In this document: positions 21,314 to 26,962 of the stretch, in pieces
How positions within the stretch are numbered: the stretch's first letter is position 1
Layout of the letters: the number at the start of each line of letters is the position of its first letter
Origin: Rhodococcus spelaei
Lineage (GTDB): Bacteria > Actinomycetota > Actinomycetes > Mycobacteriales > Mycobacteriaceae
Assembly: GCF_006704125.1 (NCBI RefSeq)
Contig: NZ_VIGH01000009.1
Coordinates: 1 to 64,000 of the forward strand
DNA length: 64,000 nt
Reading direction: 5' to 3'
The notes under the pieces: generated by a model
What the model saw: the letters and a program-made list of their open reading frames with translations, nothing else
Told to the model about the DNA's origin: nothing
Database searches by the model: none
Program-made: the position numbers and the translations under genes

Positions 21314-23321
<2,008 letters not shown>

Positions 23322-23452: not shown

Positions 23453-25414
23453 TCAGCGGCCCGCGTCGATCACCGTGATCGGTCGCGCCGGCGCGGTGGC
23501 CGAATCCGTGAGGGTCGCGGCGCGGCCGGCCCTCACCCCGTTGGCGATGACGACGATCTCGGCGACCTCGTGGACGAGGACGACGGCGGCGAGGCCGAGT
23601 ACGCCGAGCAGTGCGAGCGGCATGAGAACGGTGATGATCGCCAGCGACAGTCCGATGTTCTGCAACATGATCCGCCGGGATCGGCGGGCGTGCTGCAACA
23701 GTTGGGGCAGGTGGCGAAGGTCCTCACCCATGAGTGCGACATCGGCCGTCTCGATGGCGACGTCGGTGCCCATCGCGCCCATCGCGATGCCGATGTCGGC
23801 GGTGGCCAGGGCCGGTGCGTCGTTGACGCCGTCGCCGACCATGGCCGTCGGCCTTGCGCCGCGCAGGGATTCGACGATGCGGGCCTTGTCTTCGGGGCGC
23901 AGGTCGGCGTGCACCTCGTCGATGCCGACGTCGGCGGCCAGGCTGCGGGCGGTGCGGTCGTTGTCGCCGGTCAGCATCGCCAGGCGGTAGCCGTCGCGGC
24001 GCAGGCGGGCGATCACGCCCCGAGCCTCGGGGCGCAGTTCGTCGCGGACCGCGACCGCGCCGAGCAGACGGCGGTCGAGTTCGACGAGCACCGCGGTGGC
24101 CCCCGCGTGCTGCATCGCCTCGACGGCGGCGCCCAGTGGCCCGGGGTCGATCCAACCGGGTCGGCCGAGCCGGGCGGTGGCGCCGTCGATCCGTCCGACC
24201 ACCCCGGCGCCGGTGACCGCAGCGACCGCCTCGGCGGGGACGGCGTCGTCGACCGCGGCGAGGATCGCTGCGGCGAGGGGATGTTCGCTGCGGGCCTCCA
24301 AGGAGGCGGCCACGGCCAGGACCTCGGCGGGGGAGGCGCCGTCGACGGTGGCGACGTCGATCACGGTGGGCCGGTTGCGAGTCAGGGTGCCGGTCTTGTC
24401 GAGCGCGATGCCGCGGATGCGACCGAGTGTCTCGAGCGCGGCACCACCTTTGACCAGGGCGCCGAGTTTGGAGGCCGCCCCGATCGCGGCAACCACGGTC
24501 ACCGGAACGGCGATCGCCAGCGCGCACGGGGACGCTGCCACGAGCACGACGAGAGCGCGTTCGATCCAGATCCGCGGCTCGCCGAGCAGGCTGCCGACAG
24601 CCGCGATCACCATGGCGGCGGCCATGATCGCGGGGACGAGCGGTGTGGCGATCTTGTCGGCCAGGCGTTGGGCCTCGCCCTTGCGAGACTGCTCGGCCTC
24701 GACGATCCGCACGATCTTCGCGAGGGAGTTGTCCTCGGCGCGTGCGGTGACCTCGACCTCGAGAACGCCTGTGCCGTTGATGGATCCGGCGAACACCTCG
24801 TCGCCGGGCCCACCCTCGACCGGTACGGATTCGCCGGTGATCGCCGAGACGTCGAGGGCGGTGCGACCGTGGCGGACGACGCCGTCGGTGGCGATTCGCT
24901 CACCGGGTTTGACGACCATGACGTCGCCGAGACGAAGGTCGGACGGCGGAACGGCCTGCTCGCGGTCACCGCGGATCACGGTGGCGGTGTCGGGGACCAG
25001 CGACAGCAGTGCGCGTAGGCCACGGCGAGTCCGTGTGACCGCGAATTCTTCGAGGCCCTCGCTGATGGCGAACAGGAATGCCAGCATCGCGGCTTCGCCG
25101 ACTTCCCCGAGGAGGACGGCGCCGACGGCGGCGATCGTCATCAGCGTGCCGACGCCGATCCTGCCTCTGGCCAGGCGTCTGAGGGTGTTCGGGACGAAGG
25201 TGCAGCCGGCGACGACCAGTGCGAGTGTTTCGAGGGCCAGTTCGACGGTGTGAGGTCCGTCGGTCCAGCCGACGATCAGCCCACCCAGCAGGAGCACGCC
25301 GGCGATCGCGGCGGCCCGGATCTCGGTGACCTGCCAGAACTTCTCGGGCTCGCGCTCCTGCGCGTCGTCGCCGACCGCAGGTTCGTCGTGGCCGCAGCCG
25401 CACGCATCGCTCAC
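23453..25414 (-). CDS. P1B-type heavy-metal-exporting ATPase (SPC motif)
   Basis: A 653-residue metal-transport P-type ATPase. The start CGCGHDE is Cys/His-rich, but no HMA domain is present. Membrane helices come in pairs. The TM metal-site motif is Ser295-Pro-Cys297, the phosphorylated residue is Asp339 in DKTGT, and the hinge is GDGVNDAPAL. The final helices carry His-Glu (LVHEVAEIV). SPC in place of CPC is characteristic of the P1B-4 group (Co, Zn, Cd, Fe). It follows a CmtR-like repressor gene by 4 bp, like cmtR-ctpG in M. tuberculosis. Cd/Pb/Zn/Co efflux is the likely role. Confidence 0.88.
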   Translation of the reverse strand: MSDACGCGHDEPAVGDDAQEREPEKFWQVTEIRAAAIAGVLLLGGLIVGWTDGPHTVELALETLALVVAGCTFVPNTLRRLARGRIGVGTLMTIAAVGAVLLGEVGEAAMLAFLFAISEGLEEFAVTRTRRGLRALLSLVPDTATVIRGDREQAVPPSDLRLGDVMVVKPGERIATDGVVRHGRTALDVSAITGESVPVEGGPGDEVFAGSINGTGVLEVEVTARAEDNSLAKIVRIVEAEQSRKGEAQRLADKIATPLVPAIMAAAMVIAAVGSLLGEPRIWIERALVVLVAASPCALAIAVPVTVVAAIGAASKLGALVKGGAALETLGRIRGIALDKTGTLTRNRPTVIDVATVDGASPAEVLAVAASLEARSEHPLAAAILAAVDDAVPAEAVAAVTGAGVVGRIDGATARLGRPGWIDPGPLGAAVEAMQHAGATAVLVELDRRLLGAVAVRDELRPEARGVIARLRRDGYRLAMLTGDNDRTARSLAADVGIDEVHADLRPEDKARIVESLRGARPTAMVGDGVNDAPALATADIGIAMGAMGTDVAIETADVALMGEDLRHLPQLLQHARRSRRIMLQNIGLSLAIITVLMPLALLGVLGLAAVVLVHEVAEIVVIANGVRAGRAATLTDSATAPARPITVIDAGR

Positions 25415-25418
25415 GCCG

Positions 25419-25787
25419 TCACTCCGCGCCGGTGCCGTAGTTCGGGCACAACGCAACCGCGCTACCCGTTGCGGTGAGCAGGGTTTCGGCCGAGGCGAGC
25501 AGATCGAGCAGTTCCGGTCGGCCGAGTGAGTAGAAGACCTGTCGACCCTGGGGCCTGCCGTCGACCAGGCCGCAGTCGCGCAGGCACGCCACGTGCGCCG
25601 ACACGGTCGACTGAGCCAATCCGAGGTCGCCGACCAGGTCCGCGACCCGAGCCTCGCCATCGGCCAGCCGACGCACGATCGCCAACCGGGTGCCGTCGGC
25701 GAGGCTGCGGAACAGTGCCACCGCCGGATCGAGGCCCGACTCGGTGCAGGTCGACTCGCGGCGCCCAACCGCATCATTGATCGTCAT
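25419..25787 (-). CDS. CmtR-like ArsR/SmtB-family metal-sensing repressor
   Basis: A 122-residue winged-helix repressor. The recognition helix segment STVSAHVACLRDCGLV carries Cys68-x3-Cys72, and Cys114 lies in the C-terminal tail. This is the Cys arrangement of mycobacterial CmtR, which senses Cd(II)/Pb(II). Cys14 is extra. The ATG at 25787 is chosen because the domain starts just after it and an operator-like palindrome covers the start. It is the first repressor of the metal-ATPase operon, 4 bp upstream of the pump gene. Confidence 0.85.
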   Translation of the reverse strand: MTINDAVGRRESTCTESGLDPAVALFRSLADGTRLAIVRRLADGEARVADLVGDLGLAQSTVSAHVACLRDCGLVDGRPQGRQVFYSLGRPELLDLLASAETLLTATGSAVALCPNYGTGAE

Positions 25788-25816
25788 CGGGCGATGATAG
25801 CGGGGAAAGGCGATGA
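25784..25816 (-). promoter_or_regulatory. Operator/promoter of the CmtR-like gene
   Basis: A TCATCG-GG-CGATGA inverted repeat (25784-25797) covers the start codon. A CGATGAT direct repeat recurs about 19-20 bp upstream (near 25812). On the minus strand a TATCAT -10 lies within this region, with a GACAAA -35 at 17-bp spacing. Repressor binding would block initiation. The transcript would be nearly leaderless. Confidence 0.5.
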
Positions 25817-25896
25817 TTTGTCGCGCGCGGCCGCGAGGCGCCGGCCGGTTCGGGTGCATCCGGACCGGCTTCCGCGCCGCACTGGACATTTGCTTG

Positions 25897-25965
25897 TCAC
25901 ATCGGCGGACAGCAAGGCCCCATCATGCGACAGAGCCAGTCGCACATCATCTGCAGGGGATTCAC
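25897..25965 (-). CDS. 22-residue Cys/Met-rich metal-binding micropeptide (putative)
   Basis: A GTG preceded by a near-perfect GAGGAGGTG Shine-Dalgarno opens a 22-codon frame ending in TGA. The residues are Met at 1, 6, 7, 14, 15 and 22 and Cys at 8, 12, 18 and 19, with Trp10 and a C-terminal Cys-Cys-Pro-Pro-Met. The C-x3-C and CC pairs plus six Met are what a soft-metal-binding peptide or tiny metallothionein would have. It lies about 90 bp downstream of a MerR-type promoter on the same strand and 109 bp upstream of the CmtR-like gene. It may therefore be the first gene of micropeptide-repressor-pump. I recognise no family. Expression is unproven, but the ribosome site and context are strong. 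Confidence 0.6.
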   Translation of the reverse strand: MNPLQMMCDWLCRMMGPCCPPM

Positions 25966-26061
25966 GGTTCACCTCCTCTCGGTGGACGTCGTGGTCGTAC
26001 TGGCCTGCGCAGCAAGACGCCACAGGAGCAGCACTGTCGGCATGACCGGGCGATGCGTCCC

Positions 26062-26093
26062 ATTGTCAACCTTCCAGTACGGTGGAAGGTCAA
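26062..26093 (-). promoter_or_regulatory. MerR-type operator-promoter driving the micropeptide
   Basis: An inverted repeat ACCTTCCA-N6-TGGAAGGT lies between a TTGACC -35 (26088-26093, minus strand) and a TGACAA/GACAAT -10 (26062-26068). The spacing is 19-20 bp, the long spacing diagnostic of MerR-family activated promoters. The layout closely resembles the CueR/ZntR target promoters. It points towards the micropeptide and diverges from merR, whose start is 10 bp away. Confidence 0.72.
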
Positions 26094-26102
26094 GGAGTCG
26101 AG

Positions 26103-26525
26103 ATGAGAATCGGTGAACTTGCAGATCAGAGCGGTGTCGCAACGAGGACTCTGCGCTTCTACGAGCAGAGTGGGCTACTTTCCGAGCCGGTCCGCACGGC
26201 AAGCGGCTACCGGGACTACGGGCCGGAATTCGTCGAGCGCCTTCACTTCATCCGTCGTGCACAGGCCGCCGGCCTGACCCTGCGTGAGGTTCGCGACGTC
26301 CTCACCATTCGCGATCGCGGGCAGGCGCCGTGCGGGCAGGTCGTGGACCTCCTCTCCGAGCACCTCGAGCAGGTTCGCGGCAAGATTCTGGAGTTGATCA
26401 CCCTCGAATCCACGCTCGAATCCCTGCTCGACCGGGCGAAACTGGGCGGACCACACGACGCAGGCAGCGCAGGCGTCTGTTGGATCCTCGAATCCGACGA
26501 CCCCGCGGCCGAGATTGCACGCTGA
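26103..26525 (+). CDS. MerR-family heavy-metal-responsive activator
   Basis: A 140-residue MerR regulator. The N-terminal winged helix has RIGELADQSGVATRTLRFYE and SGYRDYG. A dimerisation coiled coil follows (about 78-115). Cys77 (in QAPCGQV) at the start of the dimer helix and Cys126 (in GVCWILES) in the metal loop are kept. A Cys at the first position marks sensors of divalent metals (Zn, Cd, Pb, Hg) rather than Cu(I) sensors, which have Ser there. It likely activates the divergent micropeptide-pump promoter and regulates itself. Confidence 0.85.
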   Translation: MRIGELADQSGVATRTLRFYEQSGLLSEPVRTASGYRDYGPEFVERLHFIRRAQAAGLTLREVRDVLTIRDRGQAPCGQVVDLLSEHLEQVRGKILELITLESTLESLLDRAKLGGPHDAGSAGVCWILESDDPAAEIAR

Positions 26526-26559
26526 TTCGACACCTGTCAATGTTTATGCATGTCGAATC
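26524..26559. repeat. Inverted repeat GATTCGACA-N18-TGTCGAATC
   Basis: Perfect 9-bp arms (26524-26532, 26551-26559) flank an AT-rich core just after merR and before the arsenic-operon remnant. It could terminate merR or be the fossil promoter/operator of the decayed ars genes. Confidence 0.5.
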
Positions 26560-26617
26560 AGGAATCGTCGAAGATCGGTGCTTGTTGTGCGCCGCTGGCG
26601 CGCGAGCCGCTGACCCA

Positions 26618-26764
26618 GGACTGACTTACGGCGCGTCGTCCGGCCAGGCGCTGGCCGGGGTGGTCGGTCCGCTGATCGAGGTCCCCGTCCTCGTCGGGCT
26701 GGTCTACGTCTCCCTGGCACTGCGCAAGCGCTTCGCGACATCGACAGGGGCCCTTCATGCCTGA
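26618..26764 (+). pseudogene. Remnant of arsenite efflux permease Acr3 (C-terminus only)
   Basis: One frame encodes YGASSGQALAGVVGPLIEVP followed by VLVGLVYVSLALRKRF, which I recognise as the last transmembrane segment and tail of Acr3/ArsB-type arsenite exporters. No start codon with a ribosome site and none of the preceding ~300 residues are present. The stop overlaps the arsC start by 8 bp, as in an intact acr3-arsC operon. This is a 5'-deleted gene. The exact left edge of homology is uncertain. Confidence 0.7.
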
Positions 26765-26933
26765 CAATCCCAGCGTGCTGTTCGTCTGCGTGCACAACGC
26801 CGGCCGCTCCCCAGATGGCCGCCGAATTCCTGTCGCACCTCGCCGGGGCATCGAAGCGGTCCGCCCGATCCGCGACCAGATGCGCGAGCGTGTCGAGGCG
26901 CTGATCGCGGAACTCGTTCCCGCGCACACGTGA
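26757..26933 (+). pseudogene. Arsenate reductase ArsC, internally deleted and frameshifted
   Basis: The N-terminus reads MPDNPSVLFVCVHNAGRS, the P-loop of a thioredoxin-coupled, LMW-phosphatase-type arsenate reductase. One extra C near 26811 then shifts the frame. Removing it restores QMAAEFLSHLAG, the expected continuation. After that the sequence jumps to GIEAVRPIRDQMRERVEALI, the family's C-terminus, in another frame, ending in TGA at 26931. About 60 central residues are missing. The gene cannot make an active enzyme. Confidence 0.75.
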
Positions 26934-26962
26934 GGCCGAACTGCTGACTGCCGCAACGCAGA

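Follow-up and report, generated by a model that had tools for sequence, protein, structure and literature searches.

A 22-codon frame lies on the minus strand of the window (the whole 64,000-nucleotide stretch of Rhodococcus spelaei DNA that was analysed). It stands between a MerR-type promoter on one side and the genes for an ArsR/SmtB-family repressor and a P1B-type heavy-metal efflux ATPase on the other (Table 1). The GTG-started frame with its ribosome site was present exactly where the initial annotation had placed it, and the sequence ahead of the start reads GAGAGGAGGTGAACC-GTG. Translation from the GTG gave (fM)NPLQMMCDWLCRMMGPCCPPM, and this product indeed contains the claimed four Cys (positions 8, 12, 18 and 19) and, with the initiator counted, six Met. 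When all start-to-stop frames of 18-30 codons were counted, with nested starts counted apart, the micropeptide was the only one of 470 in the 64-kb window with at least four Cys and at least four Met, and none of 1,999 such frames in 20 random Nocardia regions (241 kb in all) reached this.

Table 1 Positions of the micropeptide gene and of the surrounding features in the window
Feature	Position	Strand	Description
groES-like and groEL-like frames	21314-23321	(+)	Named by eye from the translations
P1B-type heavy-metal efflux ATPase	about 23453..25414	(-)	SPC motif; TIGR01525 and TIGR01512 over cut-off; predicted start
ArsR/SmtB-family repressor	25419..25787	(-)	NF033788 over cut-off; start taken from the Rhodococcus homologue
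GC-rich hairpin past the peptide stop codon	25819..25888	(-)	Borderline, z -2.0
Micropeptide gene	25897..25965	(-)	22 codons, GTG start, TGA stop, product MNPLQMMCDWLCRMMGPCCPPM
Ribosome-binding site	25966..25979	(-)	AGAGGAGGTGAACC; abuts the GTG on its 5' side; read directly
MerR-type promoter	26062..26093	(-)	TTGACC -35, dyad ACCTTCCA-N6-TGGAAGGT, 20-base spacer, GACAAT putative -10
Divergent MerR-family regulator	about 26103..26525	(+)	Pfam over cut-off; predicted start

Longer frames of 63, 79, 97 and 150 codons overlap the micropeptide, and each was considered as the real gene and rejected, since none had clear conservation of its own. When they were compared with the loci of six relatives, their better matches coincided with the peptide itself, with the MerR box or with the antisense strand of the ArsR gene. 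The placement between a MerR promoter and a repressor plus P1B ATPase stood, whereas the term CmtR-like for the repressor holds only as nearest relative, below the model cut-off.

The window ArsR keeps the CLRDC (CxxxC) Cys pair and the C-terminal Cys. Its nearest solved relative is CmtR, and the CmtR NCBIfam model reached 63.8 of 150 bits, below the curated cut-off. The window MerR was nearest to the CadR/PbrR, MerR and ZntR NCBIfam models, all below their cut-offs (CadR-PbrR, 109.1 of 151.45 bits); since both the CmtR and the CadR/PbrR models fell short, only family-level names are used for these neighbours. A Cys at the start of the dimerisation helix marks divalent-ion sensors among MerR proteins, and alignment to MerR-family structures placed a Cys of the window MerR (APCGQV) at this helix start, where CadR-type proteins have one. 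The MerR start is likely the ATG at 26103 and not the listed GTG at 26082, because the frame from the GTG overlaps the dyad and the similarity to solved MerR begins at residue 7 or 8. From the MerR Cys, the CmtR-nearest ArsR with its CxxxC and the models below cut-offs, the window system is probably, though not certainly, of the Cd/Pb/Zn type; many of the Nocardia copies described below lie beside copper genes.

Two further groups of frames were observed around this cassette. The groES-like and groEL-like frames point at the P1B ATPase gene, with the ends about 130 bases apart, and the groEL-like frame has a His-rich tail, GHGHGHSH; metal binding by a His-rich-type region of GroEL1 is mentioned in the accessible text of PMC9374683. 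Beyond merR, the plus strand at 26600-26950 carries fragments that by eye look like the final part of an ACR3 arsenite transporter and like an arsenate reductase, and in the Rhodococcus plasmids that were viewed an ars operon flanks the MerR/peptide/ArsR/P1B cassette on the matching side.

Conservation and spread of the peptide

A tblastn search with the peptide matched 19 plasmid records, 18 from Rhodococcus (about 86% identity) and the Nocardia plasmid pNF1 (61%), and none of the 19 had an annotated feature under the match in the gene table consulted, which is incomplete. When 84,980 species, one genome each, were searched with a DNA pattern for MNPxxMxCxWxC, 30 stretches were found, all from Nocardia and one of them in a metagenome bin. 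All 30 opened a frame of 21-25 codons behind a purine-rich ribosome site; these sites in the relatives were mostly of the AGGAGG type, with a GAAGGA type in a branch of 25-residue peptides. By its residues, the window micropeptide belongs to a family of peptides that are 21-25 residues long and follow the pattern MNPxxMxCxWxCxxMxxC.

A total of 23 distinct peptides were collected by motif, and three variants outside this motif set (L114, L115 and L118) were added by hand. In an 18-row alignment N2, P3, M6, C8, C12, M15 and C18 were invariant, and M1 and W10 were nearly so. Outside the alignment, MNH was found in two variants, MNL in one and MSP in one, and W10 was replaced in a few. In several branches Pro stood in place of C19.

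The Ka/Ks-type check that the initial annotation had called for was carried out on the relatives, and synonymous changes were found in excess. In 32 distinct coding sequences the mean pS was 0.56 and the mean pN 0.20 in frame, and the shifted frames gave pS/pN of 0.36/0.25 and 0.17/0.31. Sixteen disjoint nearest pairs showed 46.7 synonymous versus 53.3 nonsynonymous changes with synonymous sites at 15% (binomial p about 8e-14). The corresponding dN/dS-like ratio was 0.21, a value biased downwards, since picking the relatives by the likeness of their peptides makes nonsynonymous change look rarer. One pair (L113/L049) went the opposite way, with 0 synonymous and 3 nonsynonymous changes. The least biased comparison, which escapes part of the peptide-similarity bias, was that of the window with Rhodococcus, where the flanking genes are the same; it gave 6 synonymous and 4 nonsynonymous changes (p = 0.005), and the identity of the peptide (86%) exceeded that of ArsR (80%) and MerR (63%). 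As judged from these substitutions, the micropeptide is under purifying selection as a peptide and is real beyond chance.

We also asked whether relatives still carrying the flanking genes had lost the frame, the Cys positions or the ribosome site, a loss that had been named as evidence against the peptide. No such loss was seen in Rhodococcus, where the 18 plasmid records with a close MerR relative were the same 18 that carry the peptide (the DNA of three was read). This part of the prediction stood, but it did not extend to the distant MerR relatives in mycobacteria and Tsukamurella, in which the peptide was absent and its slot was filled by other genes.

A profile built from 18 members matched 32 of 150 Nocardia genomes (30 when the two with weak matches only are set aside) at 51 places, 47 of them clear, with up to four copies per genome. 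The same profile matched one of 28 genomes of the Rhodococcus-type genus and nothing in 396 other genomes sampled at the order level and 295 others at the phylum level, samples that contain few Nocardia. In five other genomes of the window's own genus, a plain search with the peptide gave weak matches in two (E 0.16 and 0.69), which were taken as chance, as was a match at the family level in a fourth genus (G316; E 0.036), which lay inside a 477-codon frame. A viral or phage origin was also rejected, since the pattern had no match in viral contigs and tblastn none in phages. Absence from the sampled relatives at the order, phylum and own-genus levels marks the peptide as accessory, and by this distribution the family is narrow, patchy and accessory.

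The earlier statement that no family like this one had been described agreed with the database searches. Up to E = 10, neither the window peptide nor five relatives matched Pfam, and the five relatives matched nothing in NCBIfam; the window peptide had no NCBIfam match at 0.001. Such short queries weaken both tests. No match was found among PDB sequences, and the literature search returned no description of such a peptide, with subscription papers largely outside its reach. The family is thus so far uncatalogued in Pfam and NCBIfam. A known RNA element at the locus was rejected, as Rfam at the gathering threshold gave no family in 25300-26600 of the window.

Gene neighbourhood, promoters and hairpins

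The neighbourhood was compared in 43 loci, namely 40 of the 51 profile-match places together with L018, L020 and the window; seven clear places, the doubtful partial match G1006:C13 and three weak ones (E 0.01-0.03) were left out. Genes were called as frames of at least 60 codons by a simple script and not by a trained gene finder, and some of the calls are open to doubt. A gene for a P1B ATPase, a multicopper oxidase, an HMA protein or a cupredoxin/DsbD protein occurred within 6 kb in 37 of the 43 loci versus none of 20 random Nocardia regions, and a wider metal-linked gene set in 38 versus none. The gene set was drawn from the same loci, the Pfam identities of the neighbours being independent of it. 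Furthermore, the locus counts overstate independence, because nearly all loci come from one genus and many are near-identical. The link of the micropeptide to metal resistance that had been read from the window was borne out by these counts. No metal-linked marker was found within 6 kb in five loci (L085, L106, L107, L115 and L116), and in L118 the sole marker was a DUF2933 gene.

The three viewed Rhodococcus plasmids keep the gene order of the window, with MerR divergent from peptide-ArsR-P1B, followed by lspA and a cadmium transporter gene; Rhodococcus erythropolis CCM2595 carries such a cassette on pRECF1. In Nocardia, one frequent order is multicopper oxidase-peptide-Penicillinase_R repressor (BlaI/CopY type)-P1B and another is cupredoxin-HMA-peptide; several branches have no close ATPase and instead a multicopper oxidase, cupredoxin or HMA gene. 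In two Nocardia, the peptide start lies 16 bases past the end of a cyclodipeptide synthase (PF16715) gene (L032:3081-3866, and in L046), and this gene lies downstream of P1B ATPase and lspA genes.

A MerR-type box directly upstream of the peptide was found in 15 of 44 loci (the set of 43 plus L019), as eight distinct sequences. It consists of a TTGAC-type -35, the dyad TTGACCTTCCA-N-TGGA within an over-long spacer, and a -10 such as TAGCAT, with 20 bases from -35 to -10, and lies 110-161 bases before the start codon; a spacer of 19-20 bases is typical of MerR promoters. The exact core occurred nowhere else in the fetched loci and not at all in the 241 kb of control sequence from the 20 random Nocardia regions, and looser look-alikes were seen elsewhere in some loci (L091 and L105). 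The window promoter is one of two matches to the core pattern in the 4.8-Mb genome and the only one in the window. The remaining 29 loci lack the box.

Among them is the 25-residue branch (L020, L103, L104, L109 and L110), whose peptides end in CPMMGQPM or CPMMMQPM. At 190 bases ahead of the peptide these loci have a common block of the type GAAGGACCTCC...AAAGGTCCCTA. DUF2933 and SHOCT proteins are encoded among the neighbours of this branch, and single loci of this or allied branches have Hsp20, universal-stress-like or CBS genes nearby; tentatively, such neighbours may point to a dormancy-type regulon.

Hairpins after the peptide stop had a mean z of -2.1 in 36 distinct stretches, 17 of which were below -2. 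In a control of 100 other called frames, taken from the peptide-bearing loci and not from random regions, the mean z was -0.7 and 15 were below -2. In the 25-residue branch the downstream hairpins were weak except in pNF1.

Possible function of the micropeptide

Because certain Nocardia and Rhodococcus relatives keep them beside metal-detoxification genes, the peptides probably bind toxic metals. The locus most likely encodes a minimal metal-binding peptide, a reading that we infer. More specifically, we consider it rather likely that the product is a metal-induced, free-standing 22-residue micropeptide that binds soft metals and is metallothionein-like in function; four Cys, against this, are few for a metallothionein.

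We propose the following mechanism. The inducer would be soft metal ions, probably of the Cd/Pb/Zn type in the window and probably copper in many Nocardia relatives. As predicted from the sequence, the divergent MerR would bind the TTGACCTTCCA-N-TGGAAGGT dyad and, when loaded with metal, activate leftward transcription. The peptide would be translated first, from its near-ideal ribosome site, and the hairpin after the stop may yield more of the peptide than of the ArsR-ATPase message. The residue pattern is compatible with a short helix capped by Asn2-Pro3, with Cys8, Cys12 and Met15 on one face, and a following turn may bring Cys18 (and Cys19) to the same ion, forming one soft-metal site. A Cu(I), Cd(II) or similar ion would be bound by thiolate and thioether groups until the P1B ATPase exports it or an oxidase acts on it, and the micropeptide would thus work as a minimal metallothionein or a soluble metal carrier.

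The main rival is a role as a partner or chaperone of the P1B ATPase, in which the peptide would bind the pump or a membrane platform and stabilise or load it in the manner of PacL (DUF1490), since PacL occupies the same promoter slot in some mycobacterial relatives; we regard this role as unlikely. In a MerR relative on a Mycobacterium avium plasmid (L155), the slot behind the box holds a DUF1490 (PacL) protein (L155:3586-3882, PF07371 at 2.7e-33 in Pfam) and then a P1B ATPase. By eye a PacL-like protein was also seen in the slot of six of the seven loci L147-L153 (L150 excepted), and the slot of a Mycobacterium lentiflavum MerR relative has no PacL protein. According to the accessible text of two studies, PacL2 stabilises CtpG, and for PacL1 a function in scavenging zinc or as a metallochaperone of CtpC has been proposed; PacL proteins contain Ala/Glu repeats besides a membrane helix, and PacL1 also has a metal motif at its C-terminus (PMC9374683, PMC13043812). 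Like PacL of the Mycobacterium avium plasmid, the micropeptide is a small accessory product encoded between a MerR-type box and a P1B ATPase gene, but it has no DUF1490 similarity and no evident membrane segment (by eye). A P1B operon lies downstream of the peptide in the window and Rhodococcus, and the ATPase gene is close by in the window and the three viewed Rhodococcus plasmids, but not in all Nocardia branches, several of which lack a close ATPase.

The initial annotation had also offered a leader peptide whose translation senses metal, and this option found less support. Translation stalled or released by metal at the Cys pair would control the ArsR-ATPase genes through the hairpin, as in CruR (DUF2946), a copper-sensing precedent in Bordetella of about 145 residues that has a CXXC motif and, at its C-terminus, a RAPP arrest motif, as described in the accessible text of PMC9426467. 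Like CruR in that text, the micropeptide is a Cys-pair product that heads a metal operon in the window, where it is first, directly upstream of the genes to be regulated, 109 bases before arsR (153 in Rhodococcus) with the hairpin between, an arrangement that would fit attenuation. The micropeptide differs in that its Cys pair is of the CxxxC type and that it stands in several gene orders and not always at the head of an operon; Pfam gave no DUF2946 match, CXXC and RAPP were absent by eye from the 23 peptides, and Rfam had no family in the window stretch. In the branch with VNPLKMIC peptides, six of seven loci (four of the seven being near-identical) have their next called downstream gene on the other strand, with calls limited to frames of 60 codons or more. 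In other branches the peptide follows the multicopper oxidase gene or, 16 bases on, the cyclodipeptide synthase gene, and some loci have nothing suitable downstream. Furthermore, the residues are conserved over most of the length across several gene orders. The hairpins after the stop, together with the opposite-strand gene in one branch, argue against a leader peptide, and a free peptide explains all contexts where a leader explains only some. Hence, the leader reading is less likely, and we give it a low probability.

We consider it very improbable that the frame encodes a RiPP precursor, to be modified into a peptide that binds copper or another metal, for example a methanobactin or a bufferin made by an MNIO enzyme. 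In favour of this reading, the family members are short, Cys-rich and precursor-like and lie near metal genes, and bufferins chelate copper, as stated in the accessible text of PMC12452194. However, when 16 peptide-bearing genomes were searched for MNIO genes (PF05114), only seven had one, either on a different contig or at a distance of hundreds of kilobases from the peptide, and the window's own genome had none; the MNIO-type option was rejected for want of a linked gene. That the frame is a chance opening without a product is hardly credible: short frames are common, as the 470 in the window alone illustrate, but the homologues with synonymous change, their common ribosome site and end point, and a promoter box common to a third of the loci led us to rule this out.

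The reading as a free metal-binding peptide invites comparison with two kinds of known protein. We know of no bacterial metallothionein smaller than the 21-25-residue peptides. The helices of copper-storage proteins (Csp), like the Cys8-Cys12 pair, have the CxxxC spacing. In Csp, Cu(I) is held mostly by Cys thiols inside a helical protein, according to the accessible text of PMC7558416; Csp proteins are tetramers of four-helix bundles, whereas the micropeptide would have one short helix, as its residue pattern suggests. The same text describes MymT as a mycobacterial copper metallothionein of 4.9 kDa that is tied to copper resistance and predicted to bind up to six Cu(I) (PMC7558416). Both MymT and the micropeptide are small, Cys-rich, actinobacterial and unannotated (MymT at first); the micropeptide is about half the size of MymT and has four Cys and six Met. 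In a test for a metallothionein of the MymT, SmtA or BmtA kind, no catalogued family was matched in Pfam or NCBIfam, with the short queries weakening the test.

It is possible, and we put this forward tentatively, that the peptides constitute a new family of genetically encoded soft-metal micro-buffers of 21-25 residues, in which a capped Cys-x3-Cys-x2-Met helix and a Cys turn would form a complete metal site. As plug-in parts they may be passed between gene sets for copper, for cadmium/lead and perhaps of a hypoxia type, often together with a MerR-type promoter and a terminator-like hairpin of their own. That Rhodococcus plasmids and metal gene sets of Nocardia carry the peptide suggests a useful cargo. 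Frames this short are often passed over by gene callers, so annotated genomes could lack a layer of metal handling. A peptide of 21-25 residues is cheap to synthesise and could show the minimum size of a useful genetically encoded metal site; other possible uses are as a short tag or as a sorbent for copper, cadmium or lead.

Two individual records differed from the rest. On plasmid NZ_CP034156.1 of Rhodococcus sp. NJ-530 (L019:6001-6063), the usual stop is lost at the last codon and the frame extends to 74 codons, which is either real or a sequencing error. On one Nocardia contig (G1066:C17, 55-139 kb), four different copies of the peptide are spread over about 84 kb, an arrangement that suggests a large metal-resistance island.
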